Assembly (NCBI GenBank): GCA_024401535.1
Contig: JAKSKX010000001.1
Span: forward strand, 186,001-250,000
Direction: 5' to 3'
DNA from: Paludibacteraceae bacterium
Lineage (GTDB): Bacteria; Bacteroidota; Bacteroidia; Bacteroidales; Paludibacteraceae
DNA length: 64,000 bases
The notes under the pieces were generated by a model, which saw only the letters and a list, made by a program, of their open reading frames with translations, was not told the origin of the DNA and made no database searches. A program made the translations under genes and the position numbers. The first letter of the stretch is position 1, and each line of letters begins with the position of its first letter. Below are positions 115 through 28,915 of this stretch, piece after piece.

Positions 115-1728
115 ATGTCTTATATGAGACTTCCAATTATAGCTAAGCTATTACTATGCGAAGTGCTTCTGTTGGCTACAAATACGAATACTTTCGCCAT
201 AGATTCGCGTATAGATACAGAGGACCTTCAACTGATTCCATTTGCGGAAGAGGATAAGATGATTTCTGATTCTGATTCATCTCTTATCAATAATTCCAGT
301 ACAAATTTTGCTGAGTTTGCATGCCAAGATTCTTCTTTTCTTAGAAAGAAAGAATTGTATGATCTTGCAATGCAATGCTATAGACGTTCACGTCTTACAG
401 AAGCTGCATATTATTTTGCAGAAGCAAGAGATGCGGATGATAAGTTATCTGCGAATGACTATCTTTATTTGACAAATTTTGCTCTTCAGCGTCATCGTAA
501 GGCACTTTCTAATATTAGGCATATTTCCCAATATCAGATGTCGTATTTGACAAAGGGACAGCGTTTGAAACTTGGTCTGCAGTCTGAATTGGGTGCTAAT
601 TGTTTCTGGGACGATGGAAAATCTATCCTTTATAGAGATGTTATTTCTCCGTACAATGAACATTACTCTTTGGCTCATCAGAATTCCGGTACCTTGCTTG
701 TTGCTCATGCTGTCGGAAAGTATTCTGTTCTATCGCACTCATTTGATATCCTAGATCATAACATTGATGCTTCTCTTTCTCATTTCGAAAAGACAGATTC
801 CATATATCGTCTTCATTACAATATTTTCCAGTATCGTCAGCGTTGGGATATTCAAGTTGGTAACCATGGATTGTTATCATTATCAGGTGCTGTAGGCTGG
901 AACGTGGATGAGCGTTTCAATTATTCCGACCAGATAAAAGTATGGGGTGGTGCAGAAACTTTGCATATTTTCTGGAATCAGCGTAGAGATCTTGATTTCG
1001 AGACTGATCCGGTTGTTGACCCTTCCTTGGAACCTTCTGAATATGATAATTGGCTAATAAAAACTATAGTCTATTACCGTGAAGGTGTCGTTTCTCAGCA
1101 AGATGCTATTGATAAAATTGACAAGTTACCTCCTTCAATAGTAGAAAACATTTGGAATAGTTATAGGGATAATTGGCATAACGAAGAGCTTGCTAAGTTT
1201 AAGAAACATGTCTCTAATTCCTATTCCCTTGGTCTTGCATACAGATTAGACCTTAAGGAAAATTCTCCTGAAATTTCCTACAATGTTAACAGAAACCAGC
1301 ATAGAGCTTTGCGAACAATGAAGCTTGCAAATACATTCTATGTAAAGGCAAACAGGAATCTGTATTTCACTCCTTTTTTCAGTTACGTATGGAGAGAGGG
1401 TATGGATCATAATCCAATAATAGGAATGACTGTAGGAGGCAAGATTATCCATCCTATCTACTACGAATGCCATTACCAACGAGGTAATACACTGCTTTCG
1501 GCAAGTGATATCGGATATTCTTTCAATACTTTGTACAAAACAACACATGAGGGATGGATTAAGCTAATCATTCCTTTAGTTGATGATTATGGAAAGTTCT
1601 CTATAAGATTCGGTTTCCAAGATTTGTACACTCATGACTATATGATTAACAGATATGGAAAGCTTGTAAACCTAGAGCTCAAGTCTGTTACAATTCCAGT
1701 TAGGTTTACTTATTCACATTGTTTCTAA
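115..1728 (+). CDS. Putative outer-membrane beta-barrel protein with N-terminal TPR-like segment
   Basis: A 537-residue protein that I cannot assign to a named family. It starts with a signal-peptide-like segment (two basic residues then a hydrophobic run, residues 4-29). Residues about 78-140 are helical and resemble a short TPR stretch. From about 170 to the end the pattern is alternating aromatic/polar strands, and the last residue is Phe after a strand-like segment, as in outer-membrane barrels. The next gene (TPR, secreted) follows after 13 bases and is probably co-transcribed. An alternative start is the ATG at 124. Location is inferred; function is unknown. Confidence 0.7.
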   Translation: MSYMRLPIIAKLLLCEVLLLATNTNTFAIDSRIDTEDLQLIPFAEEDKMISDSDSSLINNSSTNFAEFACQDSSFLRKKELYDLAMQCYRRSRLTEAAYYFAEARDADDKLSANDYLYLTNFALQRHRKALSNIRHISQYQMSYLTKGQRLKLGLQSELGANCFWDDGKSILYRDVISPYNEHYSLAHQNSGTLLVAHAVGKYSVLSHSFDILDHNIDASLSHFEKTDSIYRLHYNIFQYRQRWDIQVGNHGLLSLSGAVGWNVDERFNYSDQIKVWGGAETLHIFWNQRRDLDFETDPVVDPSLEPSEYDNWLIKTIVYYREGVVSQQDAIDKIDKLPPSIVENIWNSYRDNWHNEELAKFKKHVSNSYSLGLAYRLDLKENSPEISYNVNRNQHRALRTMKLANTFYVKANRNLYFTPFFSYVWREGMDHNPIIGMTVGGKIIHPIYYECHYQRGNTLLSASDIGYSFNTLYKTTHEGWIKLIIPLVDDYGKFSIRFGFQDLYTHDYMINRYGKLVNLELKSVTIPVRFTYSHCF

Positions 1729-1741
1729 AATTAGTGTAGCT

Positions 1742-2353
1742 ATGAAAAGACGATTTTTATTATTGCTCTTTGCTATACTGAGTTTGTATGTGAAGGCTGA
1801 TGACGAGGACTACGCTTCAAAATTTATACAGAGTTACAAGAAGGAGCAGAGTGGTGATATTCCAGGTGCTATCTCTGTAATGACTACTGTATATACTGAT
1901 TGCTATGAGAAATACATTAGATTGGGAGAGTTGCATTATAGGAATAACGACTATATCTCTGCTTTAAGAAGCTTCCAGCTTGCATTGGAATTTAAGCCGC
2001 GTTCAGTAGAGGCATACCTCCTAGTTGTTCAGGCAGGAGCCAGACTTAAAGATTGGAAATTGGTTGGAGATTCCTACGACAAGATTCTAGACATTGATCC
2101 TGATAACAAGACCGCTCTTTATTATAGAGGTCTTTTGCATTACAACACTAAGCAGTATCAGTTGTCAAAGCAGAAGCTTGACCACTTGATTGAGCTTTAT
2201 CCTTTGGACTATGACGGTGTGATTCTGCTTGCCTGGTGTAATTATCATATTGGATTTAATACTAAAGCAAAGAAACTCTTTCAGCTTGCATTATGCATAA
2301 ATAGTGACAGCAAGTCAGCTAGAGAGGGATTGAAGATGTGCGGAAAGAAATAA
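1742..2353 (+). CDS. Secreted TPR-repeat protein
   Basis: A 203-residue protein with an N-terminal signal peptide (KRR then a leucine-rich core, residues 1-19). At least four tandem TPR-like helical pairs follow, with the usual A/Y/P spacing (for example YISALRSFQLALEFKPRSVE around residues 75-95). It follows the putative barrel protein by 13 bases, so it is likely a periplasmic adaptor partner. TPR proteins mediate protein-protein contacts; the partner is not known. A strong terminator lies about 75 bases downstream. Confidence 0.7.
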   Translation: MKRRFLLLLFAILSLYVKADDEDYASKFIQSYKKEQSGDIPGAISVMTTVYTDCYEKYIRLGELHYRNNDYISALRSFQLALEFKPRSVEAYLLVVQAGARLKDWKLVGDSYDKILDIDPDNKTALYYRGLLHYNTKQYQLSKQKLDHLIELYPLDYDGVILLAWCNYHIGFNTKAKKLFQLALCINSDSKSAREGLKMCGKK

Positions 2354-2426
2354 TTTAGTGTGTAAGACTTAATTATAGCTTCTGCCATCCATGTAAAATA
2401 TATTTTTTGAAGTATATCCATACAAT

Positions 2427-2466
2427 AAAATGCTTCCAATATTGATGTTGGAGGCATTTTATTTTT
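2427..2466 (+). terminator. Rho-independent terminator after the TPR gene
   Basis: A 13-bp stem (2427-2439 with 2448-2460, one G-U pair) with an 8-base loop is followed by a T-rich run. It closes the two-gene unit upstream. It may also stop transcripts arriving from the minus-strand promoter at about 2.94 kb. Confidence 0.8.
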
Positions 2467-2586
2467 TATTGTGATTTTGTTTGTAATTAGTCTTGTATTT
2501 AGATTTTCATATTTGTATTTATTGTACGTTAATGTTTGAATGCAAATTTATTCTTTGCAATTATATCTTCGCAGTTACTAGCATTG

Positions 2587-2647
2587 TTTATCATAGTTGA
2601 GAAATTATATATTCTACTACTTTTGCATTTTATCATAGTTGAGAAAT
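2587..2647. repeat. Pair of 19-base direct repeats, with a third degenerate relative
   Basis: The identical 19-mer TTTATCATAGTTGAGAAAT occurs at 2587-2605 and 2629-2647. A diverged copy (ATCAATGTTGAGAAATT) lies at about 2716-2732. The first two are 42 bases apart. They lie inside the candidate minus-strand RNA. Confidence 0.7.
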
Positions 2648-2718
2648 TTTTATAGTTGTTGTTGTCTAAGCATCTAAACATTTAGATAGTCACAATATAA
2701 TAGTGTTGGCATAAAATC

Positions 2719-2766
2719 AATGTTGAGAAATTAAAGAAGCTATTGCTTGATTAATTCCTCAACATT
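2719..2766. repeat. 48-base inverted repeat (hairpin)
   Basis: A 16-base left arm (2719-2734) pairs with 2751-2766, with one position that is G-U only in the minus-strand RNA. The 16-base centre forms a second 4-bp stem with a tetraloop. No T-run follows on either strand, so it does not look like a terminator. Confidence 0.6.
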
Positions 2767-3200
2767 ATGTGAGTGATAATGTAAAAATGAAATTTGCTTA
2801 GCCTCTCACGAGGATCGACATGAATAGAAAATGTATGTTAAATGATATCCACTTTTGATTTCACAATCATCTTGTGAATAATGATTGATTGTATTTTATT
2901 GAATAACTTCAAAAAATAAGTTCTTTGTTTATGATGCAAAGTTACTCTTTTTTTTGATTTTACAAGTTTTTTTTCAAAAAAAATTAACATTTTAGTAAAG
3001 TTTTTCACATTTTTCTTAGCTTTTCAACAAAAATTGCTGATTGTTGATAACTATTATATTGTTTGTGAATAACATTTATCATTGTATATTACTGCATGTT
3101 TTAATTATTTCTAATTTTGCATTGTTGAATTTTAGAAATACAAAGCTTATTTCTATTATAATTCTTCGCTTATAATAATATAGTATAAATCAATACATCA

Positions 3201-4172
3201 ATGGCACTAGAGATTATTTATCGTACTAAGTTCAGACGTTTAACAAATACAGCCCATTATGCAATTGTTAACGATGTATATAATATGAGCATTGCTAACA
3301 CTCAGTTGTGTGGTAAACTAAACAATGGACTTGAAAGATTAAGAGCAGCTATCGAGAAAGAGCGTGAATATGTTCTTAAAAAGTATGACAAGACTCTTAC
3401 TATTAATCTCAAGAATGCTATTGCTATAGAAAATAAAGCATTTACTGCTGTATATAAGATGCTAAAGTATAAGGCTTCTATTTCTACAGTAAATGATATC
3501 CAGACTGCAGCAAGAAAGCTTGTTGTTACTTTCGATACATACATGAGGGATCGTGGCAAAAAGACTCTTGGAGAATGGATTGGTTCTGAGGCAAGAATGA
3601 TCGAAGAGTGGGGAGGAAATGAAGGCCAAAGACTTTTCGAGAGATTGAACATGACTGACATGATTGGTGAGATAATGAACCAGCATACAAACATGATATC
3701 CATTTACAAGGAAATCAAGCAAAAGATGGTGTCATTCGGTTATACTAAGATAGCTCAATATCGCCAGGAAACAGATGCAGCTATGGCTTTCCTTGCTGCA
3801 AACTATTTGATTCTTGCCAATGATTATGATGTGAATATATCATCTGCTGCTAAAGAAGCAATAGATGGTATCAACTATATGATAGAACAGTTCTCTGAGC
3901 ATATCCAGCCAGTTAGCGAAGATGCAGAGGATGAAAAGAAATCTATTTCTATGACACCAAAGGTTTCTACTGTTCAGTCTAATGGATATTCGGCTACTGT
4001 AGAGGATGAGGAATATTCAATGAAGGAGAATGAACGTGAATCTAACATAATAAACGGTGGTTCTGTTCGTAGCATTAAAAATATTGCTGACAAATATAGC
4101 GATGCTGAGAATCCATTCGAAAATCTCGATAGTACACCTATGACAGAGATTGATGAGAATCTCATTGAATGA
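3201..4172 (+). CDS. DUF6261-family protein
   Basis: A 323-residue, mostly helical protein without a signal peptide or membrane segment. The N-terminal half resembles the Bacteroidota DUF6261 family (start ...YRTKFRRLTNTAHYAIVNDV); this assignment is from memory. Residues 1-235 form the conserved-looking helical region. The C-terminal 85 residues are acidic and low-complexity. A TAATTTTG box at 3112-3119 could be its -7 element. Function is unknown for the family. Confidence 0.6.
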   Translation: MALEIIYRTKFRRLTNTAHYAIVNDVYNMSIANTQLCGKLNNGLERLRAAIEKEREYVLKKYDKTLTINLKNAIAIENKAFTAVYKMLKYKASISTVNDIQTAARKLVVTFDTYMRDRGKKTLGEWIGSEARMIEEWGGNEGQRLFERLNMTDMIGEIMNQHTNMISIYKEIKQKMVSFGYTKIAQYRQETDAAMAFLAANYLILANDYDVNISSAAKEAIDGINYMIEQFSEHIQPVSEDAEDEKKSISMTPKVSTVQSNGYSATVEDEEYSMKENERESNIINGGSVRSIKNIADKYSDAENPFENLDSTPMTEIDENLIE

Positions 4173-4207
4173 TTTGTCATATAGATTAGACAACCAATTT
4201 TTGTAAT

Positions 4208-4335
4208 ATACTTGTGTGGTGGTGAGTAAACTTTAGTTTATTTGCAGTTGAATTCATCACTTATCAAGAAATGGCACAGTTTGAGAAAATCATGCGATTT
4301 TTATTTATTTTTTGCAAAAGCCACCACACAAGTAT
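4208..4335. repeat. 128-base element with 15-base perfect terminal inverted repeats (MITE-like or structured RNA)
   Basis: ATACTTGTGTGGTGG at 4208-4222 is exactly complementary to 4321-4335. The enclosed 98 bases contain a small hairpin (4227-4240) and no convincing gene. A T-rich run follows the right arm. It sits between the DUF6261 gene and the CCA-adding enzyme. It could be a miniature transposable element, an untranslated regulatory structure or an oversized terminator. I see no clear target-site duplication. Confidence 0.5.
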
Positions 4336-4382
4336 TTTTATTTCAATTAACATATAGAACTTATTTATTTCAATATATTAGC

Positions 4383-5843
4383 ATGAACTTTGATTTTTCA
4401 GACATTTTCAAAGACAAGGCAATAAAGCTAGTATCAGAAACAGCTCAGGAAATTGGTATAGATGCTTTTGTTGTCGGTGGTTTCGTTCGTGATCATATTC
4501 TTGGAAGACCGAACAAGGATGTAGATGTTCTGACACTAGGAGCGCAGAGCAGCGAAAGACTTGCTATGGCAGTAAAATCTAAGCTTGGTAAATACTCAAG
4601 TATGTCTATTTTCAAGAACTTTGGAACTGCGCAGGTAAAGAGTCATGATGTTGAAATAGAGTTTGTAACAGCCAGAAAGGAAAGCTATAATAGAGATAGC
4701 AGAAATCCTAAATGTGAACCTGGAAATTTGAGAGACGACTTATCTAGAAGAGACTTTTCTCTAAATGCAATGTGTGTTCGTCTTTGCGACAGAAGTGACG
4801 AATCATTAGATTGTGGAATAGGAACTGGAAAGAAAGGAGAACTAATAGACTTATTCGATGGCCAAAGAGATTTAGAGTGGGGTATTCTAAGAACTCCTCT
4901 TGATCCAGTTGTTACGTTTGATGACGATCCTTTGAGAATGATGAGATGTGTTAGATTTGCATCTCAACTTGGAATGAGTCCAGAGGAGAATACATTCAAT
5001 GCAATCAGAGAGAATGCTGATAGGATAAAAATAATTACTCACGAGCGTATCAAAGATGAGTTTGTTAAGATAATGATGAGCAAGCGACCAAGTGTAGGAT
5101 TATACTTTATGGAGGAAAGTGGACTTATGGAGCAAGTGCTTCCTGATGTTCATGCCCTTGCTGGAATTGAGACAAAAAACGGAAGAGCTCATAAAGATAA
5201 TTTCCTACATACAATGCAGGTTTTGGATAATGTTAGCGAGAAATCTGATAACTTGTTCTTGAGAATTTCTGCTCTATTTCATGATATAGCAAAGCCTCAA
5301 GCAAAGAAGTTTGAGCAAGGTAGAGGATGGACATTCCATAACCACGAGTATTTAGGAGGAAAGATGATGCCGAGAATTTTCAAGCATCTTACTTTGCCTC
5401 TAGGAATGGAACTCGAATATACAAAGAAGATGGTCAGCCTACACATGCGTCCAATATCATTGATAGAGGAAGGAGTTACTGACAGTGCAATTAGAAGACT
5501 TCTTTTTGAAGCTGGAGATGACATTGATGACTTGATGATTCTTTGCGATGCAGACATTACTAGTAACAATGTATTGAAGCGTGAGAAGTTTCATAACAAC
5601 TACAAAATCCTAAGAGAGAAAATGCAGGAGATTGAGGAGAAAGACCATATTAGACTATTTCAGCCTCCTGTATCTGGAAATGACATTATGGAAACTTTCG
5701 GTATTGGTCAATGCAGAGAGATTGGTATCATAAAGGAAGAGATAAAAAATGCTATCTTGGATGGTAAGATTCATAATGAAAGGGAAGAAGCACTTAAGAT
5801 GATGTTCGAGATAGCTGAACGTATAGGATTAAAGAAAGTATAA
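4383..5843 (+). CDS. cca: CCA tRNA nucleotidyltransferase with HD domain
   Basis: Adds or repairs the 3' CCA end of tRNAs. With the ATG at 4383 it is 486 residues, a normal length. A longer frame back to a TTG at 4242 would run through the inverted-repeat element and encodes nothing conserved, so I reject it. The nucleotidyltransferase signature GGFVRDHILGRPNKDVDVL lies at residues 32-50, with the metal-binding DVD at 46-48. The head-domain arginine-rich motif (RRDFSLNAM) follows. A C-terminal HD phosphohydrolase domain begins near residue 300 (ISALFHDIAKP). SusD follows after 17 bases. Confidence 0.93.
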   Translation: MNFDFSDIFKDKAIKLVSETAQEIGIDAFVVGGFVRDHILGRPNKDVDVLTLGAQSSERLAMAVKSKLGKYSSMSIFKNFGTAQVKSHDVEIEFVTARKESYNRDSRNPKCEPGNLRDDLSRRDFSLNAMCVRLCDRSDESLDCGIGTGKKGELIDLFDGQRDLEWGILRTPLDPVVTFDDDPLRMMRCVRFASQLGMSPEENTFNAIRENADRIKIITHERIKDEFVKIMMSKRPSVGLYFMEESGLMEQVLPDVHALAGIETKNGRAHKDNFLHTMQVLDNVSEKSDNLFLRISALFHDIAKPQAKKFEQGRGWTFHNHEYLGGKMMPRIFKHLTLPLGMELEYTKKMVSLHMRPISLIEEGVTDSAIRRLLFEAGDDIDDLMILCDADITSNNVLKREKFHNNYKILREKMQEIEEKDHIRLFQPPVSGNDIMETFGIGQCREIGIIKEEIKNAILDGKIHNEREEALKMMFEIAERIGLKKV

Positions 5844-22469: not shown

Positions 22470-23100
22470 TGAATTGTTATCCAGAAAGGTTTCGGGGCGG
22501 ACGGACTGGACCCAAGGCGGTCCGTTTGCCGCATTCTTTTCGCTGCATTTCCCTATCGTTTTGCACCACAAAGTTAGTGAAAAATTCCGAGACTGCCAAG
22601 CTTTTTGCCGTGTAGTTTTGATATTTTTTCGCTTTTTTCTGCCTCTGCGTTTGTCTTTTCGGCTCTTTTTGGAGAGAGCCGAAAACAGCGTTTCGTCCGT
22701 CGCCTTTGTTTCGTTATGGAGAGGTGTCAGCTCCTTTTCCTTTCGGCTTTTGGAACAACCTTGACGGGAAAGGTTGTTCCGGTTTTTCCGCGCGTCCGCT
22801 CCGCCTTCGGATTGCGGGTGGTGCGAGCTTCCCCGAAGAAGCTCGCAGCCTCCTTGCCCTTTGGCGGAAGGGCGGCGGTCAGGAGCTTGTCTAAAGCTAT
22901 AACTCTAGCAAGTATAATATATTTTAATATATATTATACTGCTTAGAGTAGCTTGTCAAGCTCCCCGGTTCCCGCCCTGTGTCGGGCGGAGCTTCGGACG
23001 GGGCGGTGAAGCTCGCCCCATCCATTTGAAAATTTTATGAAAAGAAGAAAAATTTTGAAAGAAAGAAGTCGCACGACTTTTTTTCAAAGTCGTGCAACTA
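22470..23100. mobile_element. GC-rich hairpin belt, probable conjugative-element remnant
   Basis: This 630-base stretch is clearly GC-richer than its surroundings and has no convincing gene. It contains stacked hairpins: an 11-bp stem at 22656-22685, an 11-bp stem at 22752-22780, a 9-bp stem at 22823-22846, an 83-base imperfect dyad at 22882-22964 and a 10-bp stem at 23071-23095. The style recalls non-coding ends of Bacteroides conjugative transposons, which I state from memory only. No integrase or mobilisation gene is present. It abuts the leu promoter on one side and the cassette array on the other. Confidence 0.45.
22882..22964. repeat. 83-base imperfect inverted repeat
   Basis: The ends GGAGCTTG (22882-22889) and CAAGCTCC (22957-22964) are complementary. 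The centre is an AT-rich dyad (AAGTATAATATAT against ATATATTATACT) with few mismatches. It is the largest structure in the GC-rich belt and could be a protein-binding or processing site. Confidence 0.55.
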
Positions 23101-23113
23101 TTAGGGAGTTTTG

Positions 23114-23145
23114 TTTGGAAGTTTCGCGTTTGTTTGCTATCTTTG
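23114..23145 (+). promoter_or_regulatory. Promoter reading into the cassette array
   Basis: TTTG at 23114-23117 and TATCTTTG at 23138-23145 are 20 bases apart. The first small ORF of the array starts about 35 bases further on. Confidence 0.75.
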
Positions 23146-23179
23146 CATCATCGTTTGAAAATTCTAAACTTGATTTTTT

Positions 23180-23326
23180 ATGAAACATTTGGGTACTGCG
23201 GAACATCTGCAGGAACATACGGGCATGAGCGTGTTCATGTGCAACACATTCACAATTCAGCAAGGGTACATATTCGTTATGCTGTTGGGCGAAGCGCAAA
23301 GTGTCGTCAGACAACTTTGTGCGTAA
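23180..23326 (+). CDS. Small ORF at head of cassette array (48 residues)
   Basis: A 48-residue ORF starting MKHLGTAEHL and ending in SVVRQLCA, placed directly after a good promoter. Its tail (IFVMLLGEAQSVVRQ) recurs at 25043-25100 as IFTMLLGKVQSVVRQ, so the tail is a duplicated coding-like segment. The stop codon lies in the repeated leader that precedes the next ORF. It could be a translated upstream ORF or a gene remnant. Function unknown. Confidence 0.4.
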   Translation: MKHLGTAEHLQEHTGMSVFMCNTFTIQQGYIFVMLLGEAQSVVRQLCA

Positions 23327-23359
23327 TTTTTGAATTTATTAACTATTTAAAAATAAAAG
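23313..23359 (+). repeat. Cassette leader repeat, copy 1
   Basis: The segment AACTTTGTGCGTAATTTTTG and the following AT-rich stretch TTATTAACTATTTAAA precede the ORF at 23366. Near-identical copies stand before the ORFs at 23952, 24373 and 25140, at 23901-23949, 24321-24366 and 25079-25125. Confidence 0.85.
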
Positions 23360-23365
23360 AGTATT

Positions 23366-23617
23366 ATGCTGCCATACTTGAAAGAAGATGGTAGTTTGGA
23401 TGTGGAGAGAATCAACAAACTACCTTATGAAAAATACATGGATATGATGGGTGCATTAACAGAATCACAAGTTAATGAGTACCTTTCTACTTTATCAATT
23501 ACAGAGTCACAAGAACCTGTACAAACAGTTTTTGTTGATTACGATATGAATGATGAGAGGTGTGGTGTTGATGCTGATGTTTTACTTAATAAAATGCGAA
23601 AGAAATATGGTTTGTAA
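23366..23617 (+). CDS. Small acidic hypothetical protein of the cassette array
   Basis: An 83-residue acidic protein (MLPYLKEDGSLDVERINKLP...) without signal peptide or membrane segment. I recall similar short Bacteroidota proteins with a Y-L-x-x-D-G-S-L start, but have no function for them. It is preceded by leader repeat copy 1. The next, frameshifted ORF begins 2 bases after its stop. Size, charge and context would fit an immunity or antitoxin-like protein; this is inference. Confidence 0.5.
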   Translation: MLPYLKEDGSLDVERINKLPYEKYMDMMGALTESQVNEYLSTLSITESQEPVQTVFVDYDMNDERCGVDADVLLNKMRKKYGL

Positions 23618-23619
23618 TA

Positions 23620-23771
23620 ATGAAATGTTATTTATCAAATGAAATGTATGAGCCTCTAAAATTAGAAGTTTATTTTTCTGATGTAATATCTAAAAAAACG
23701 AAGATGTTATAGCCTACAATCAAGATAATTTGGATGATTTAAATGAATGGCTACAATATATCATATACTAA
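23620..23771 (+). pseudogene. Frameshifted small gene with A7 slippery run
   Basis: An ATG 2 bases after the previous stop opens a frame (MKCYLSNEMYEPLKLEVYFS...) that stops at 23710-23712, after a run of seven A (23693-23699 region). A -1 shift on that run continues in a coherent frame (EDVIAYNQDNLDDLNEWLQYIIY) to a TAA at 23769-23771. Beyond that stop the same frame keeps reading protein-like into the 3' repeat (NGNYTLVELLAQDYRSS). So this is either a decayed gene or, less likely, one using slippage. Confidence 0.45.
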
Positions 23772-23777
23772 AAAAAT

Positions 23778-23949
23778 GGTAATTATACACTTGTTGAATT
23801 ATTAGCACAAGACTACCGTAGCTCCTGATTGTTTGTGCTGAAAACATTGATAATCAAGATGTTTTATATTTGTTCACATCTCTGGAGATGTTTAGTGGTG
23901 TTGAACTTTGTGCGTAATTTTTGAATTTGTTAACTATTTAAATAAAAGA
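23778..23949 (+). repeat. Intergenic repeat copy A (gene-tail remnant plus leader)
   Basis: About 170 bases that recur almost unchanged at 24200-24366 (copy B) and in degenerate form at 24855-24950 (copy C). In two frames it reads like the broken C-terminal part of a protein (NYTLVELLAQDYRSS and LLIVCAENIDNQDVLYLFTS). It ends in the leader repeat. It also contains small hairpins (AGCACAA/TTGTGCT and ACATCTC/GAGATGT). Confidence 0.85.
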
Positions 23950-23951
23950 AA

Positions 23952-24182
23952 ATGAATAATAATACTTTATTTATGCTGACTGAAGAAGAAATGAAATTAC
24001 ATGAAGAATTTCATCAATGTCAAAATGAAGAAGAATTAGAAGAGTTTATGAAAAAAGTAGAGATTTTAAATGAATCTCGTGAAAATAATGAGATTCCTCA
24101 TCTTAATATGACATTAGAAGAATATTGTACAAAGTTTAATTCAGTACCATATGAGGAAATTAGAAGAAAGATGAATATTTGA
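23952..24182 (+). CDS. Small acidic helical protein of the cassette array
   Basis: A 76-residue, strongly acidic and helical protein (MNNNTLFMLTEEEMKLHEEF...) with many E residues. It is flanked by repeat copies A and B, with leader repeat 2 directly before its ATG. Unrelated in sequence to its neighbours in the array. Function unknown; immunity-like by size, charge and position only. Confidence 0.5.
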   Translation: MNNNTLFMLTEEEMKLHEEFHQCQNEEELEEFMKKVEILNESRENNEIPHLNMTLEEYCTKFNSVPYEEIRRKMNI

Positions 24183-24199
24183 TGTTGTCAATTTAATTA

Positions 24200-24366
24200 G
24201 GTAATTATACACTTGTTGAATTATTAGCACAAGACTACCGTAGCTCCTGATTGTTTGTGCTGAAAATATTGATAATCAAGATGTTTCATATTTGTTCACA
24301 TCTCTGGAGATGTTTAGTGATGTTGAACTTTGTGCATAATTCTGGGATTTATTAACTATAATTAAA
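24200..24366 (+). repeat. Intergenic repeat copy B
   Basis: Near-identical to 23778-23949, with scattered substitutions (for example GTGGTG to GTGATG near its end). It separates the 76-residue ORF from the 157-residue ORF. Confidence 0.85.
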
Positions 24367-24372
24367 GTAATT

Positions 24373-24846
24373 ATGATTATTAGAAAAGTAACACAGGAAG
24401 ATTTGCCGATGATTGCAAAACTATCAAAAGACAAGAGTCTTAAAGATAGAGCAGATATATGTTTGGAATATAGCAGAATATGTTTGGATGAAGATAATAC
24501 TATTCTTGCTTTTGCTTTAGTTAAAGAAAGTTTATTGGACGACTATTTTAACGGAGAGATACCTGTTGATGATTCAGAAGATTTGAATGATGAAGATTAT
24601 GAAGAAGGTGATGAATTATGGTTAGTAGAGCATTTGATATATTTTAAAGATAGGCAATATGAAGTGATTTCTTCATATTTGAAAAAAAATTATAATTCTG
24701 ATATTCTTTATAAAGTTTTATCAGAACTCGAAGTAAATAAATCTGGTTGTCCTATAGGTTTAATTTGGTCTAAAAAAGATATAAATAGTACATTCTTTTA
24801 TAATTTTAATAATTATGTATGGGTGTCAGTTCCTTTTGTTGATTAA
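24373..24846 (+). CDS. Acidic hypothetical protein, possible degenerate GNAT fold
   Basis: A 157-residue acidic protein. The first 25 residues (MIIRKVTQEDLPMIAKLSKD) resemble the start of GNAT N-acetyltransferases. However, the acetyl-CoA loop (Q/R-x-x-G-x-G/A) is not visible and the middle is an acidic insertion (residues 56-80). It may therefore be a non-catalytic relative. It is preceded by leader repeat 3 and followed by the degenerate repeat copy C. Confidence 0.5.
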   Translation: MIIRKVTQEDLPMIAKLSKDKSLKDRADICLEYSRICLDEDNTILAFALVKESLLDDYFNGEIPVDDSEDLNDEDYEEGDELWLVEHLIYFKDRQYEVISSYLKKNYNSDILYKVLSELEVNKSGCPIGLIWSKKDINSTFFYNFNNYVWVSVPFVD

Positions 24847-24854
24847 AAAACTAT

Positions 24855-24950
24855 GGTAATTATACACTTGTTGTCCAAATCGTATAATTATTAGCATAAG
24901 ACTACCATAATCTTGATTGTTTTGGTACTGAATACATTAATAATCAGGAT
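24855..24950 (+). repeat. Intergenic repeat copy C, degenerate
   Basis: Starts with the same GGTAATTATACACTTGTTG as copies A and B but carries an insertion and many substitutions. It then runs into an independent promoter (TTG 24956-24958, 20 bases, TATCTTTG 24979-24986). No gene lies between 24847 and 25139. Confidence 0.6.
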
Positions 24951-24955
24951 TTTTA

Positions 24956-24986
24956 TTGACGGTTTCATAATAATTCGCTATCTTTG
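24956..24986 (+). promoter_or_regulatory. Second promoter inside the cassette array
   Basis: TTG at 24956-24958 and TATCTTTG at 24979-24986 are 20 bases apart. It drives the 71-residue ORF at 25140 through a leader that again contains the MLLG..QSVVRQ tail and the leader repeat. Confidence 0.65.
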
Positions 24987-25139
24987 CTGAAGTGTGTAAT
25001 AACACACGAAAACTAAAAGCAGGTGATATATTTACAATGCTATTAGGGAAGGTGCAAAGTGTAGTTAGGCAAAACGATGTTGAACTTAGTGCATAATTTT
25101 TGAAATAATTAACTATTTAAAAGAAATAATACATAGAGT

Positions 25140-25355
25140 ATGAAAAAAAGTATTGGCAATTTTTTGTTAGAGGGGTGGACACCAACTCCTGTTGAACAAG
25201 CATTGATGGATGGTACATTTGATAAGTTACTAATCGAATCAGTTGATACAGATGGAGATGATATACCAAGTGATTTTTTGGAAGTACAAGATTTTGATAC
25301 TGCTATGGAAGAAATTAAATCTGAAATAGATAAATGGCAGGCAGAAGAATTATAA
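25140..25355 (+). CDS. Small acidic protein of the cassette array
   Basis: A 71-residue acidic protein (MKKSIGNFLLEGWTPTPVEQ...) with no signal peptide. Leader repeat 4 ends about 15 bases before its ATG. Like its array neighbours it has no recognisable domain. The last cassette of the repeat-joined series; the genes after it lack the leader. Confidence 0.5.
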   Translation: MKKSIGNFLLEGWTPTPVEQALMDGTFDKLLIESVDTDGDDIPSDFLEVQDFDTAMEEIKSEIDKWQAEEL

Positions 25356-25432
25356 CTAACAGAGCGAAAGAAAGTATAAGAAATCTATACCAGATAAGTA
25401 CACGAAAGAGCATCCAAAGAAAACAAGAAACT

Positions 25433-25936
25433 ATGAACAGAGCGTTGAAATACTTGGTTGGCACTATGGCTATGCTGCCGAGCCTCTTGGTGGCGGAGGC
25501 AGAGGAACAGCACTACATCCTTACCGGAGATGGATTGCAGAAGGCAGACAGCGGCTACGAAGATGTGCGGTTTCTTACCGAGGAGGAGGTTCTTGGATGG
25601 TGCGCACAAGAACCCGACTCGTTGAAGGACGAGGCATATACAAAGTACGGATTCACATGGCATTCAATATACGAGAGTATGAAAAGGGATTCGTTCGCAT
25701 ACGTTCCTTTTACTGTGGAGAAGTATGAGTATGAGTATCATAGGGATAGACACCATTTAAAAGAATTCATGACATGGCACAGAGATGTGTGTGACTGTCC
25801 GTTCGAGGAGCTGATAATTGTTCACTATCGTTCTCCGCAGTGGACATGGAACGCTTTGGCTGGCAGAGAGGGGTTGCTCCCTATCTGCAGAAAACACAAG
25901 AAGCAGTTCAGAATAATGTTGTGGAGTATGAATTAA
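25433..25936 (+). CDS. Secreted hypothetical protein, WTW/GREG family, copy 1
   Basis: A 167-residue protein from the ATG at 25433; the longer frame to 25334 overlaps the previous gene. A signal-peptide-like start (residues 1-20) is followed by the motif LTEEEVLGW and a C-terminal block SPQWTWNALAGREGLLPICR. A second, related gene follows directly. The C-terminal block resembles a Bacteroidota family with a W-T-W..L-x-GREG pattern, known to me only as hypothetical. Confidence 0.6.
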   Translation: MNRALKYLVGTMAMLPSLLVAEAEEQHYILTGDGLQKADSGYEDVRFLTEEEVLGWCAQEPDSLKDEAYTKYGFTWHSIYESMKRDSFAYVPFTVEKYEYEYHRDRHHLKEFMTWHRDVCDCPFEELIIVHYRSPQWTWNALAGREGLLPICRKHKKQFRIMLWSMN

Positions 25937-25948
25937 GCTCTTTTGTGT

Positions 25949-26524
25949 ATGATGAAACGGATTTTATGTGTTGTGTCCATACTGTCTAGCCTCTTGCCGG
26001 CATCTGCCCATGATTCGCTGAAAGAGAGGGTAGAGGAGCATTTGAAAATGGTAGAGAGGTATCGTCAGGAGAGAAGCTATGAGGTAGAGCCGGGAATATA
26101 TCGTGTTGAATATCCAGACGATGACGAACTTGAAATAAAGGATATAGAGATTATCTATCTGCCGGAAGAAGAGGTGCTTGGGTGGACTGAAATCGAGCCT
26201 GATTCGTTGTTGGACGAATACATGGGAGTCTGTGGATTCAACTGGTGCGGAATATACGAATGTATGAGCAGGGATTCGTTTGCCTGCATACCTTTTGACG
26301 AGGAACTGTATTTCAGTGGAATTTACGGAACGAAAGTTTTCAGACGAAAATTTGAGAAGTCGAGGGAAAGGAAAGGATGTAACTGTCCGTTAGATGAACT
26401 TGTGCTTGTCTATTACAATTCTCCGCAATGGACTTGGCCTGCACTTGTGGGCAGAGAGGGACTTCTGCCAATCTGCCGCAAGCACAAGTTTCAGTTTAAG
26501 CTGAGAACCTGGAAGATGAGCTGA
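25949..26524 (+). CDS. Secreted hypothetical protein, WTW/GREG family, copy 2
   Basis: A 191-residue paralog of the preceding gene, 12 bases downstream. It has a clear signal peptide (RILCVVSILSSLLPASAHD). Shared segments are LPEEEVLGW, EPDSLLDEY, CNCPLDELVLVYYNSPQWTW and GREGLLPICRKHKFQF. The conserved cysteines (CNCP and PICRK) suggest a disulfide or metal site. The Met start could also be at 25952. Function unknown. Confidence 0.65.
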   Translation: MMKRILCVVSILSSLLPASAHDSLKERVEEHLKMVERYRQERSYEVEPGIYRVEYPDDDELEIKDIEIIYLPEEEVLGWTEIEPDSLLDEYMGVCGFNWCGIYECMSRDSFACIPFDEELYFSGIYGTKVFRRKFEKSRERKGCNCPLDELVLVYYNSPQWTWPALVGREGLLPICRKHKFQFKLRTWKMS

Positions 26525-26810: not shown

Positions 26811-28118
26811 ATGGTTAAGGATGTATTAAAGTTTATAGATTTGTTCGCTGGTATAGGTGGAATAAGGCTAGGATTAGAACAAGCTGCAAAGGAAGCTGGT
26901 TTTACGCCTATGTGTGTATTTACATCTGAAATCAAAGAGCACGCTATAGCCATATTAAAACAGAATCATCCTAAAGATAAAATTACTGGTGATATTACTA
27001 AGGTAGATGCTGATACTATTCCAGATTTTGATATATTGTGTGGTGGGTTTCCTTGCCAAGCATTTAGTGCGGCTGGTAATAGGGATGGATTTGCAGATAC
27101 TAGAGGTACTTTGTTTTTTGATGTAGAAAGAATTATAAGAACTAAGACTCCAAAAGGATTTATACTTGAAAATGTTGAAGGACTAGTAAATCACGATGGG
27201 GGTAATACCTTAGAGGTAATACTTTCTAATCTGGATGCTGCTGGCTATTGGGTATCACATAAGGTATTAAATTCCGTAGATTTCGGTGTGCCACAAGAAA
27301 GAAAGCGTATATATTTTGTGGGGGTCAGAAAGGATTTATGTAAAGAAGCAATATCTTTAGATGCATTCCCTAAAAAGAAAGCCACTTTAGAAAAAGTATT
27401 AGAATCTGGTAAACCTACATCTGCTTCTCCTTTTGTAACACTTCTACTTAATCTTTTTACAGTAGAAGAATTAGCTGGTAAAGCTATTAAGGATAAGCGT
27501 GGTGGTGAATCAAATATACATAGTTGGGATTTACAATTAAAAGGACCTGTAAGCACTGAAGAAAAAGAATTACTTAATCTTCTTATGACAGAAAGAAGAA
27601 AAAAGAAATGGGCTGAAATCATTGGTATAAAGTGGATGGATGGTATGCCTTTAACAAAAGGACAAATAGAAACCTTCTACCAGAATGATAATTTACAAGC
27701 TATGTTAGATGATTTAACTAATAAAGGCTATGTGAGATTTGAACACCCTAAGAAACAAATAACGGAAGAACACATAGCCCCTAATGGGGAAAAAGTAACC
27801 ACTACTAGAAGGGTAAGTGATACTAGTAAACCCAAAGGGTATAATATAGTAGCTGGTAAACTTAGCTACGAAGTGGGTAAGGTATTATCCCCTAATGAAG
27901 TAGCCCCCACATTAGTAGCAACAGATATGCAACACCTATTTGTAGGTGATAATGGCGGTCTGCGTACCCTTACATTAAGGGAAGGGTTAAGATTATTTGG
28001 TTATCCAGAATCCTTTAAGTTTGACATAAAAGAAAAGGATGGTTTTGATTTGCTTGGTAATACAGTAGTAGTACCTGTTATCAAAGCAGTAGCTTCACGA
28101 TTAGTAGATAAGATTTAG
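26811..28118 (+). CDS. DNA (cytosine-5) methyltransferase, type II R-M
   Basis: Methylates cytosine C5 in a specific DNA site to protect the host from the paired endonuclease. It is 435 residues with all the ordered C5-MTase motifs: FIDLFAGIGGIRLGLE (I, about 8-23), GGFPCQAFSAAG with catalytic Cys (IV, about 80), ENVEG (VI), QERKRIYFVG (VIII) and LGNTVVVPV (X, about 416). The variable target-recognition region is about 190-360. The neighbouring NgoBV-like endonuclease points to a GGNNCC target, by analogy only. A TACCTTTG box at 26778-26785 is a possible -7 element. Confidence 0.93.
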   Translation: MVKDVLKFIDLFAGIGGIRLGLEQAAKEAGFTPMCVFTSEIKEHAIAILKQNHPKDKITGDITKVDADTIPDFDILCGGFPCQAFSAAGNRDGFADTRGTLFFDVERIIRTKTPKGFILENVEGLVNHDGGNTLEVILSNLDAAGYWVSHKVLNSVDFGVPQERKRIYFVGVRKDLCKEAISLDAFPKKKATLEKVLESGKPTSASPFVTLLLNLFTVEELAGKAIKDKRGGESNIHSWDLQLKGPVSTEEKELLNLLMTERRKKKWAEIIGIKWMDGMPLTKGQIETFYQNDNLQAMLDDLTNKGYVRFEHPKKQITEEHIAPNGEKVTTTRRVSDTSKPKGYNIVAGKLSYEVGKVLSPNEVAPTLVATDMQHLFVGDNGGLRTLTLREGLRLFGYPESFKFDIKEKDGFDLLGNTVVVPVIKAVASRLVDKI

Positions 28119-28147
28119 TATGTTTTTCTTTTTTCGATAATAACGAT

Positions 28148-28915
28148 ATGGTGCAAAAAGTAACAGCTGAAGAAATTTTTGATGCCCTACGGAATGAGTT
28201 TACTTTTGTAGGTACTGAAGGCTATATTAAATTCAATCTAAGAGATTTTGATATAGTAGTAGAGCAAAATAATGTAGTAGGTAACATTCTTGAAGAATGG
28301 TTAGCTAAATGGTTTACAGAAAAGAATTTTGAAAACATTCACAATCACAAACAGTGCTCCCCTGATTTCTGGTTAGATAAAGATAACCTTAATGAAGGAT
28401 GGATGGAAGTAAAGTCTTTTACTGGAAGCCCTAATTTTGATATAGGAGCATTCCGTGGATACATAAACGAGATAGTAGAAAATCCGTGGAAACTACACGC
28501 TAAGTATCTTCTTATAAAATATAGAATGGAAGAAGAAGGCGGTCTGGTAGTTATAGAAGATTTCTGGCTAAAGAATGTATGGGAAATTAGTTGTACGAGC
28601 AGTAATTGGCCTGTAAAGGTACAGTACCGTAATAAGGTTATTAACAATATTAGACCTGCTACTTGGTATTCAGATAATACAGATTACCCTACCTTTGAAT
28701 GCCTAGAGGATTTTCTGGCTGCATTAGAACAAACCATTTACGATTATCATGATACTAGATCTACCATTGCAGAAAATTGGGCTAAAAAACTATGTGCCAA
28801 TTATAAGAAGTACTATGGTAAAGACCTGATATTACCTAGATGGATGGATGTAAAACACAAATATCCAAAGAAGCTAACAAAAGCAGAATTAAAGGCACTT
28901 GCAAAAAAAGAATAG
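28148..28915 (+). CDS. NgoBV-like type II restriction endonuclease
   Basis: Partner of the methyltransferase 29 bases upstream; expected to cut unmethylated DNA. It is 255 residues. The stretch VGNILEEWLAKWF (about 41-53), the putative catalytic core SPDFWL ... WMEVKSFTG (PD...EVK pattern, about 73-95) and the block WLKNVWEISCTSSNWPVKVQ (about 139-158) match the NgoBV family as I remember it (Pfam RE_NgoBV, site GGNNCC). The PD-(D/E)xK-type residues are visible. Assignment is from memory. Confidence 0.75.
   Translation: MVQKVTAEEIFDALRNEFTFVGTEGYIKFNLRDFDIVVEQNNVVGNILEEWLAKWFTEKNFENIHNHKQCSPDFWLDKDNLNEGWMEVKSFTGSPNFDIGAFRGYINEIVENPWKLHAKYLLIKYRMEEEGGLVVIEDFWLKNVWEISCTSSNWPVKVQYRNKVINNIRPATWYSDNTDYPTFECLEDFLAALEQTIYDYHDTRSTIAENWAKKLCANYKKYYGKDLILPRWMDVKHKYPKKLTKAELKALAKKE

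Follow-up and report, generated by a model that had tools for sequence, protein, structure and literature searches.

Small acidic genes behind repeated left ends of a probable transposase-less IS1595-family transposon lineage in a Paludibacteraceae genome

Why four small genes without recognizable relatives should each follow a copy of the same leader was the question raised by positions 23,114 to 25,432 of the DNA studied here, a window of 64,000 nucleotides (C1:186001-250000) from the genome of a gut-type Paludibacteraceae bacterium (assembly GCA_024401535.1; 2.96 Mb in 69 contigs, 91.5% complete). An initial annotation had explained the arrangement as an array of immunity genes kept without their toxins. 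Our analysis pointed elsewhere: the array is probably built from stacked left ends of a single transposase-less transposon lineage of the insertion sequence (IS) family IS1595, each standing before different cargo in the manner of mobile insertion cassettes (MICs). Contigs labeled C1, C2, C4, C10, C16, C23, C37 and C57 belong to this genome; labels beginning with G and L denote other genomes and loci.

Left ends and cargo in the window

All features of the array lie on the + strand. The 52-nt leader was found at 23308, 23899, 24321 and 25078, and relative to the copy at 23899 the other three were 81%, 71% and 85% identical (23308, 24321 and 25078, respectively). The four open reading frames (ORFs) reported behind it were recovered as ORF1 (23366..23617, 83 aa), ORF2 (23952..24182, 76 aa), ORF3 (24373..24846, 157 aa) and ORF4 (25140..25355, 71 aa); the cargo was acidic in 4/4 cases (isoelectric points of 4.05-4.64), and the repetition of the leader was far beyond chance. 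A 23-base leader core matched the window three times against 0.00 expected (at most three mismatches, 100 shuffles; the first copy was missed), and GGTAATTATACACTTGTTG matched three times against 0.03 expected with the same settings. The latter opens three copies, at 23778, 24200 and 24855. The first two, A and B, had been described as near-identical, which was borne out over 160 nt at 95% identity (23778-23937 vs 24200-24359).

Copy C (24855-25139) had been taken for a decayed copy; instead, it was the most complete, and the losses were carried by A and B. It runs from the 22-bp terminal repeat GGTAATTATACACTTGTTGTCC (24855..24876, 0 mismatches) through a predicted stem-loop (24910..24950, folding compared with shuffles), the promoter-like sequence 2, TTGACGG...TATCTTTGC (24957..24987, from alignment), and about 30 peptide codons to TTAACTATTTAAA and ORF4. 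The putative transposase-tail remnant within it, NNTRKLKAGDIFTMLLGKVQSVVRQNDVELSA followed by a stop codon (24998..25096), was identified by peptide comparison, with E 7e-13 against the C2 tail. The terminal repeat and the bases behind it (GGTAATTATAC...GTATAATTATT, 24855-24892) also form an imperfect palindrome with a predicted hairpin. Left ends A (23778..23951) and B (24200..24372), delimited by repeat search and alignment, keep a shortened terminal repeat and remnants of the rest. Both lack 12 bp in the alignment, including the final three bases of the terminal repeat, together with the promoter-like motifs and the larger part of the tail peptide; wherever nothing was deleted, the left ends agreed in repeat, stem, promoter and tail. 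The stem-loop prediction gave z scores of -2.3 for C, -2.9 for the C4 element and -0.2 for A, so that a like stem was present in C4 and none in copy A. The TATCTTTGC of promoter-like sequence 2 was likewise present in C4, C10 and C2 by alignment.

Leader copy 1 is a 48-aa ORF (23180..23326) whose tail ...MLLGEAQSVVRQLCA precedes a stop codon. Peptide comparison related it to the C2, C1 and C10 leaders (E 1.2e-5, 0.0038 and 0.0039; E 8.9e-5 in the reverse search), and it may be read as a transposase remnant with an internal deletion. Ahead of it lies promoter-like sequence 1 (23114..23147), which ends in TATCTTTGC, and the stretch 23114-23191 aligned weakly with the C4 element across its promoter/start region (70.6%, E 0.004 in a tiny database). 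Both promoter-like sequences were judged by eye against a Bacteroidales consensus.

Terminal repeats and transposase remnants beyond the window

At up to three mismatches, the terminal repeat occurred at 13 sites in the genome (8 forward, 5 reverse; A and B included), of which the one on C23 may be due to chance, and the same pattern read backwards occurred at none. An inverted pair on C37 encloses a 1169-bp two-gene unit between flanks TAAATTTA that are identical at 8/8 bases, and a pair on C16 encloses 130 bp between identical flanks ATATTATA (8/8). Elements of 117-130 bp with inverted pairs, resembling miniature inverted-repeat transposable elements, were present at C16, C57 and C1:130 kb. 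Chance agreement of two all-A/T 8-mers arose in 1359 of 200000 draws (0.7%). The inverted pairs begin with GG, except in the C1:130 kb element, where one side begins with GA. The IS1595 family makes 8-bp target duplications and the related Merlin elements have terminal GG (PMC8101967), while ISApl4 has A/T-rich 8-bp repeats (PMC12561309). The C37 unit has the structure of a MIC, with inverted ends, cargo, no transposase gene and a target duplication, and its ends are probably of IS1595 type. It shares its terminal repeats with the array but resembles the leader only faintly (47 bases, 79%).

The initial annotation would have been refuted by a leader confined to the array, and this was not the case: leaders like that of copy C precede different genes on C10, C4 and C2, and on C4 the N-terminus of a transposase stands where the other leaders have the tail. 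The left terminal repeat of C10 is decayed in the alignment, and the right end of C10 has a strong predicted hairpin that is terminator-like (z -6.9, 0 of 200 shuffles as good). No terminal repeat at up to six mismatches adjoins the C2 leader. Some end searches used a best-match regular expression, which may skip weaker matches; a plain mismatch-count rescan of 26 loci for the terminal repeat yielded no additional inverted pair at up to five mismatches. The inverted-repeat searches in genome G302 and Treponema succinifaciens and the right-end search in P. massiliensis, described below, relied on the best-match pattern alone.

The leader peptide connected these ends to IS1595 transposases. The C2 and C10 leaders read ...FRYNTRKLKAG(E/D)IFTMLL(G/V)KVQSVVRQHDVELCA and copy C reads ...NNTRKLKAGDIFTMLLGKVQSVVRQNDVELSA, each up to the stop codon, with silent changes between copies. 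All three peptides aligned to the C-terminus of a B. faecis IS1595 transposase, with 0 of 500 shuffles as good in each case. A 36-aa fragment from C4 (MKLFESFNSLFEL..., behind a like left end) aligned to residues 7-30 of the same protein (0 of 500 shuffles as good); this match was not subject to selection, as the fragment had not been used in choosing the protein. The C4 fragment also matched the N-terminus of a P. massiliensis transposase, where 1 of 1000 shuffles scored equally well. In G300, a relative from another genus, the IS1595 transposase gene ends in YRWNTRKASESERFSDMFNKSIGLIVTWSELKLCKVA before its stop, and against this tail 0 of 5000 shuffles were as good for C2 and C10 and 22 of 5000 for copy C. 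Because the N-terminus is kept in one place and the C-terminus in others, internal deletions of one transposase gene are indicated.

Candidate parent elements were present in relatives, as the IS1595 transposase domain (DDE_Tnp_IS1595, PF12762) was found in 5 of 13 other genomes searched, including G300, G301 and G302. Contig C2 of G302 carries a 3.1-kb IS1595 element bounded by inverted GGAATTATMCACTTTARACTTGT (L097, bases 1634 to 4779), which holds a PF12762 transposase followed by a SocA/Panacea antitoxin-type gene and has a 9-bp repeat TAATTTTTT in its flanks when the boundary is shifted one base outward. Such antitoxin-type genes (PF13274) stand directly behind both G302 IS1595 transposases (L097 2623-3099, L098 8510-9001). 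A related transposase, with GGAATTATCCCCTC as an inverted pair, is present on a T. succinifaciens plasmid, and in P. massiliensis GGTAATTATATAC lies 168 bp ahead of the IS1595 transposase start, with no right end found at that locus. In G300, the like end GGTAATTATATAGGG is found on the far side of the transposase and its cargo. An IS5-family parent was rejected, as the transposase fragment beside the G301 terminal repeat is part of an IS5-type element whose ends differ (TTAAGAA...). Another family considered was IS66, solely on account of ends that start with GTAA. At L029 (6491-6900), a diverged end with four mismatches lies about 400 bp before an apparent type I restriction methylase gene, as judged by eye.

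Both the repeat and the peptide were rare. The terminal repeat occurred at no more than one mismatch in 5 of 358 genomes of the family, our own included, and an exact scan of a species-genome collection with a slightly degenerate repeat returned 4 loci, all in Paludibacteraceae metagenome-assembled genomes (two from horse feces, one from sheep rumen, one with source unstated). At the repeat loci of G315 and G324 the flanks are the same and a partner end is absent at six mismatches or fewer; these loci may represent coincidence within a conserved gene. The leader peptide was found in 1 of 393 genomes sampled from the order Bacteroidales (our own alone, E of at most 0.001); among 61 relatives it fell below E 0.01 in our own genome only, and seven others gave E 0.018 or worse.

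Several results weigh against a transposon origin. The window copies have no inverted partner and no target duplication is readable there, and across the six elements compared (seven pairings, C4 having two left partners) a duplication was found in just two, with none at C4, C57, C1:130 kb or one element in G302. No PF12762 match was found in our own genome at its 91.5% completeness, and neither Pfam nor NCBIfam recognized the leader remnants; this missing recognition by profile models weakens but does not remove the transposase case. The first IS1595 transposase matched by the leader query lay on a B. faecis plasmid at E 3, and as the protein was picked through that query, its C-terminal match is partly selected. 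The leader tails did not match the P. massiliensis transposase (564 to 937 of 1000 shuffles as good), nor four other transposases (p 0.076-0.96), and the C4 fragment did not match those four either (p 0.14-0.52); these four and the B. faecis protein came from seven loci drawn on, in five of which a transposase frame was found. Leader copy 1 had no direct transposase match (p 0.096 for B. faecis, and none for P. massiliensis or G300), copy A did not match the G300 tail, and the G300 gene is interrupted by a stop codon and cut off by the end of its contig. A one-base gap is needed to fit the G302 ends to the window repeat, and next to the transposases of B. faecis and B. finegoldii the sequence read contained no like end. 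For the ends in G300 and P. massiliensis, 6 of 22 bases differ from the repeat; chance yields 2.2 matches per 100 kb at that distance, so that their position, not their score, speaks for them. Our confidence was reduced because these two ends stand at six mismatches and because the tails matched only two of the transposases tried.

Alternative explanations and the nature of the cargo

The alternative that survives best is passive debris, in which unequal crossing-over made further copies of an IS1595 remnant and the reading frames arose by chance or are decaying, without any cassette exchange; we consider this possible, if unlikely. Whereas the losses common to A and B, the absent right ends and two partner frames that appear broken would all suit such debris, like leaders precede different open frames at C10, C4 and C2, the same repeats bound other genes at C37, and the four window ORFs are intact, with no homologues for a selection test. 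The partner frames in question are a 30-aa ORF directly after ORF1 (23620..23712) and the start of a second frame that overlaps the end of ORF4 and enters the next module (25334..25432), neither with a Pfam match. With ORF1 and ORF4 they form a layout that resembles toxin-antitoxin pairs. That interpretation was set aside, as it had the layout alone in its favor and Pfam returned 0 families for the four pieces searched singly.

The immunity-gene explanation is very improbable in its specific form, an array like the recombinase-associated interbacterial defense (rAID) loci, where co-oriented orphan immunity genes with conserved intergenic motifs are shuffled by a tyrosine recombinase. The window genes are indeed small, acidic and co-oriented with a conserved intergenic motif, and an SMI1/KNR4 gene in G301 lies about 400 bp from a copy of the array's terminal repeat. 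However, the motif resembles a transposon end, no immunity-type domain was found in ORF1-4 (a family absent from the libraries would escape), and tyrosine recombinases (PF00589) were absent from contig C1, with four elsewhere in the genome. An integrase or rAID basis was rejected on this absence, which also leaves no candidate integron integrase on C1, where no attC search was made. That G301 locus (L036 2833-5984), with SMI1/KNR4 (SUKH) and DUF6985 genes near the repeat, would be a better candidate than the window for an immunity locus. The remaining idea, that the repeated sequence works as a translated regulatory leader or a structured RNA in control of the downstream genes, is extremely improbable: a conserved short ORF precedes the cargo and a stem-loop is predicted in C and C4, but the peptide matches transposase tails, A and B lack most of it, the copy A stem is no better than shuffles, and Rfam gave no match at gathering score across 22900-25500.

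The cargo itself gave the immunity claim no positive support, as it has no recognizable relatives or immunity domain. Among 17 proteins searched in Pfam (ORF1-4 and the C2, C4, C10 and C37 cargo), no cargo scored above curated cut-offs, the only matches being the downstream methylase and endonuclease; none of 10 window and other cargo proteins did so in NCBIfam. For ORF1-4, the best Pfam E value was 0.0064 (ORF2), NCBIfam had nothing reaching its cut-off, PADLOC had nothing, and the best PHROGs E value was 0.067. A search for ORF3 in 357 other genomes of the family (358 in total) found no convincing relative, the single match having E 0.008 at 32% over 60 aa. On plasmids, ORF1, ORF3 and ORF4 had zero matches at E of at most 1, and the window DNA 24200-25130 had none at E of at most 1e-5. 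Sequence searches of the PDB gave best E values of 0.22 (ORF3), 1.9 (ORF1) and 0.91 (ORF4), and scans of viral sequences gave no confirmed relative of ORF1, ORF3 or the second C37 protein (C37b) and the terminal repeat at 0 loci.

Cargo elsewhere in the lineage offered a hint of its source. Both C37 proteins (C37a and C37b) start with MKQ.(I/V)RLTES, and a similar start was found on a 170-aa protein in the unit neighboring C4. The G300 cargo includes MKQTIRLNESELKRMIAESVRRVLRE, with this N-terminal tag; compared with it, shuffles were as good in 0 of 2000 cases for C37a, 1 of 2000 for C37b, 1 of 2000 for the C4 protein and 417 of 2000 for the C2 protein. An IMG/VR contig encodes a protein 80% identical to the G300 cargo, and the tag starts 4 of 5 consecutive small genes there. 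Phages may have supplied part of the lineage's cargo. PHROGs gave no confirmation that this contig is viral; among 10 proteins searched in each of PHROGs and PADLOC the best matches were weak (E 3.3e-4 for C37a, 2.3e-4 for C37b), and phage records had no match to either C37 protein at E of at most 1. The tag, approximating M...IRLTES.LH.IV..SV..(I/V)L.E, covers the four genes of that contig and similar starts on proteins within or beside elements with these ends (L110 2408-4721; L102 3001-3507; L024 6493-7445; L023 6581-7093). The tag often ends in L-x-E, which is reminiscent of capsid-targeting peptides cleaved by T4-type prohead proteases. Pairwise comparison of eight small cargo proteins, ORF3 excluded, gave 6 of 28 pairs with p < 0.03 (200 shuffles each); except for the shared start of C37a and C37b, this similarity is too weak for a family.

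Downstream of the array lies a two-gene module (25433..26524, + strand) that is 93% identical to a segment of G301, from another genus (G301:C67:1286-2373; L036 1286-2375). The similarity stops within 2 bp of the coding ends and the flanking DNA is unrelated; in G301 a copy of the array's terminal repeat stands 60 bp from the module. A pair encoding a C5-cytosine methylase and an NgoBV-type restriction endonuclease follows at 26811-28915.

A cassette model and its implications

If the array is a stack of transposon left ends, a complete left end would begin with the terminal repeat, followed by the stem-loop, the promoter-like sequence, residual transposase codons, TTAACTATTTAAA and the cargo, and a right end, as on C10, would consist of the terminator-like hairpin and an inverted terminal repeat. 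An IS1595 transposase supplied in trans could act on both ends and move the cassette, which would carry a promoter and terminator of its own. The window array would have lost its right ends, leaving three left ends head to tail; promoter 1 could read ORF1-3 and promoter 2 ORF4. The cargo was most likely swapped by recombination or deletion between left ends, and it is presumably expressed and under selection. With no right ends, the window array lies outside the definition of a MIC, and "stack of MIC left ends" describes it best.

MICs have inverted repeats, usually a target duplication and no transposase gene nearby, and IS231A mobilizes MIC231 in trans (PMC3913671). IS copies that carry passenger genes are termed transporter ISs (PMC3129680), and IS1595-type examples (tIS) include tISCpe8 and MTnSag1 (PMC5704250). 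The elements described here resemble MIC231 and other MICs in their transposase-less inverted ends, cargo unrelated to transposition, putative expression signals of their own and, in two of six elements, target duplication (PMC3913671, PMC3129680). MIC231 belongs to IS231 of Bacillus cereus, whereas here the ends are probably of IS1595 type, in Bacteroidota, left ends are stacked without right ends, and the cargo has no known relatives. With tISCpe8 and MTnSag1 they have in common passenger genes and relatives of IS1595-type transposases (PMC5704250), but what is left of the transposase here is a tail or an N-terminal stub, and the cargo consists of small genes that lack known relatives. The rAID arrays of Bacteroidales (PMC12247911) are similar in their co-oriented short genes, conserved intergenic motif and related hosts, and differ in that the window contig has no tyrosine recombinase, no immunity domain was found and the motif is transposon-end-like. 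A stack of decayed MICs is therefore of a known kind, and the family and the stacking are new; no report of IS1595-type MICs in Bacteroidales stood among the titles listed, in a library without most subscription journals.

What had appeared to be an immunity-gene array is likely a transposon-derived cassette array, for which the moving part, its ends and the likely helper transposase family can now be named. A wider and rather doubtful proposal is that transposase-less IS1595 ends serve as a gene-capture platform in gut-type Bacteroidota, with moving ends that carry promoter and terminator sampling short phage or toxin-antitoxin genes into operon-like arrays. If true, an integron-like outcome would be reached through DDE transposon ends with no integrase. 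The finding also advises caution, as a transposase tail may be mistaken for a conserved "leader" ahead of small unknown genes. Should mobilization of the ends in trans continue, one simple DDE transposon lineage would spread promoter-equipped small genes in gut-type Bacteroidota, some of which resemble genes of a viral contig.

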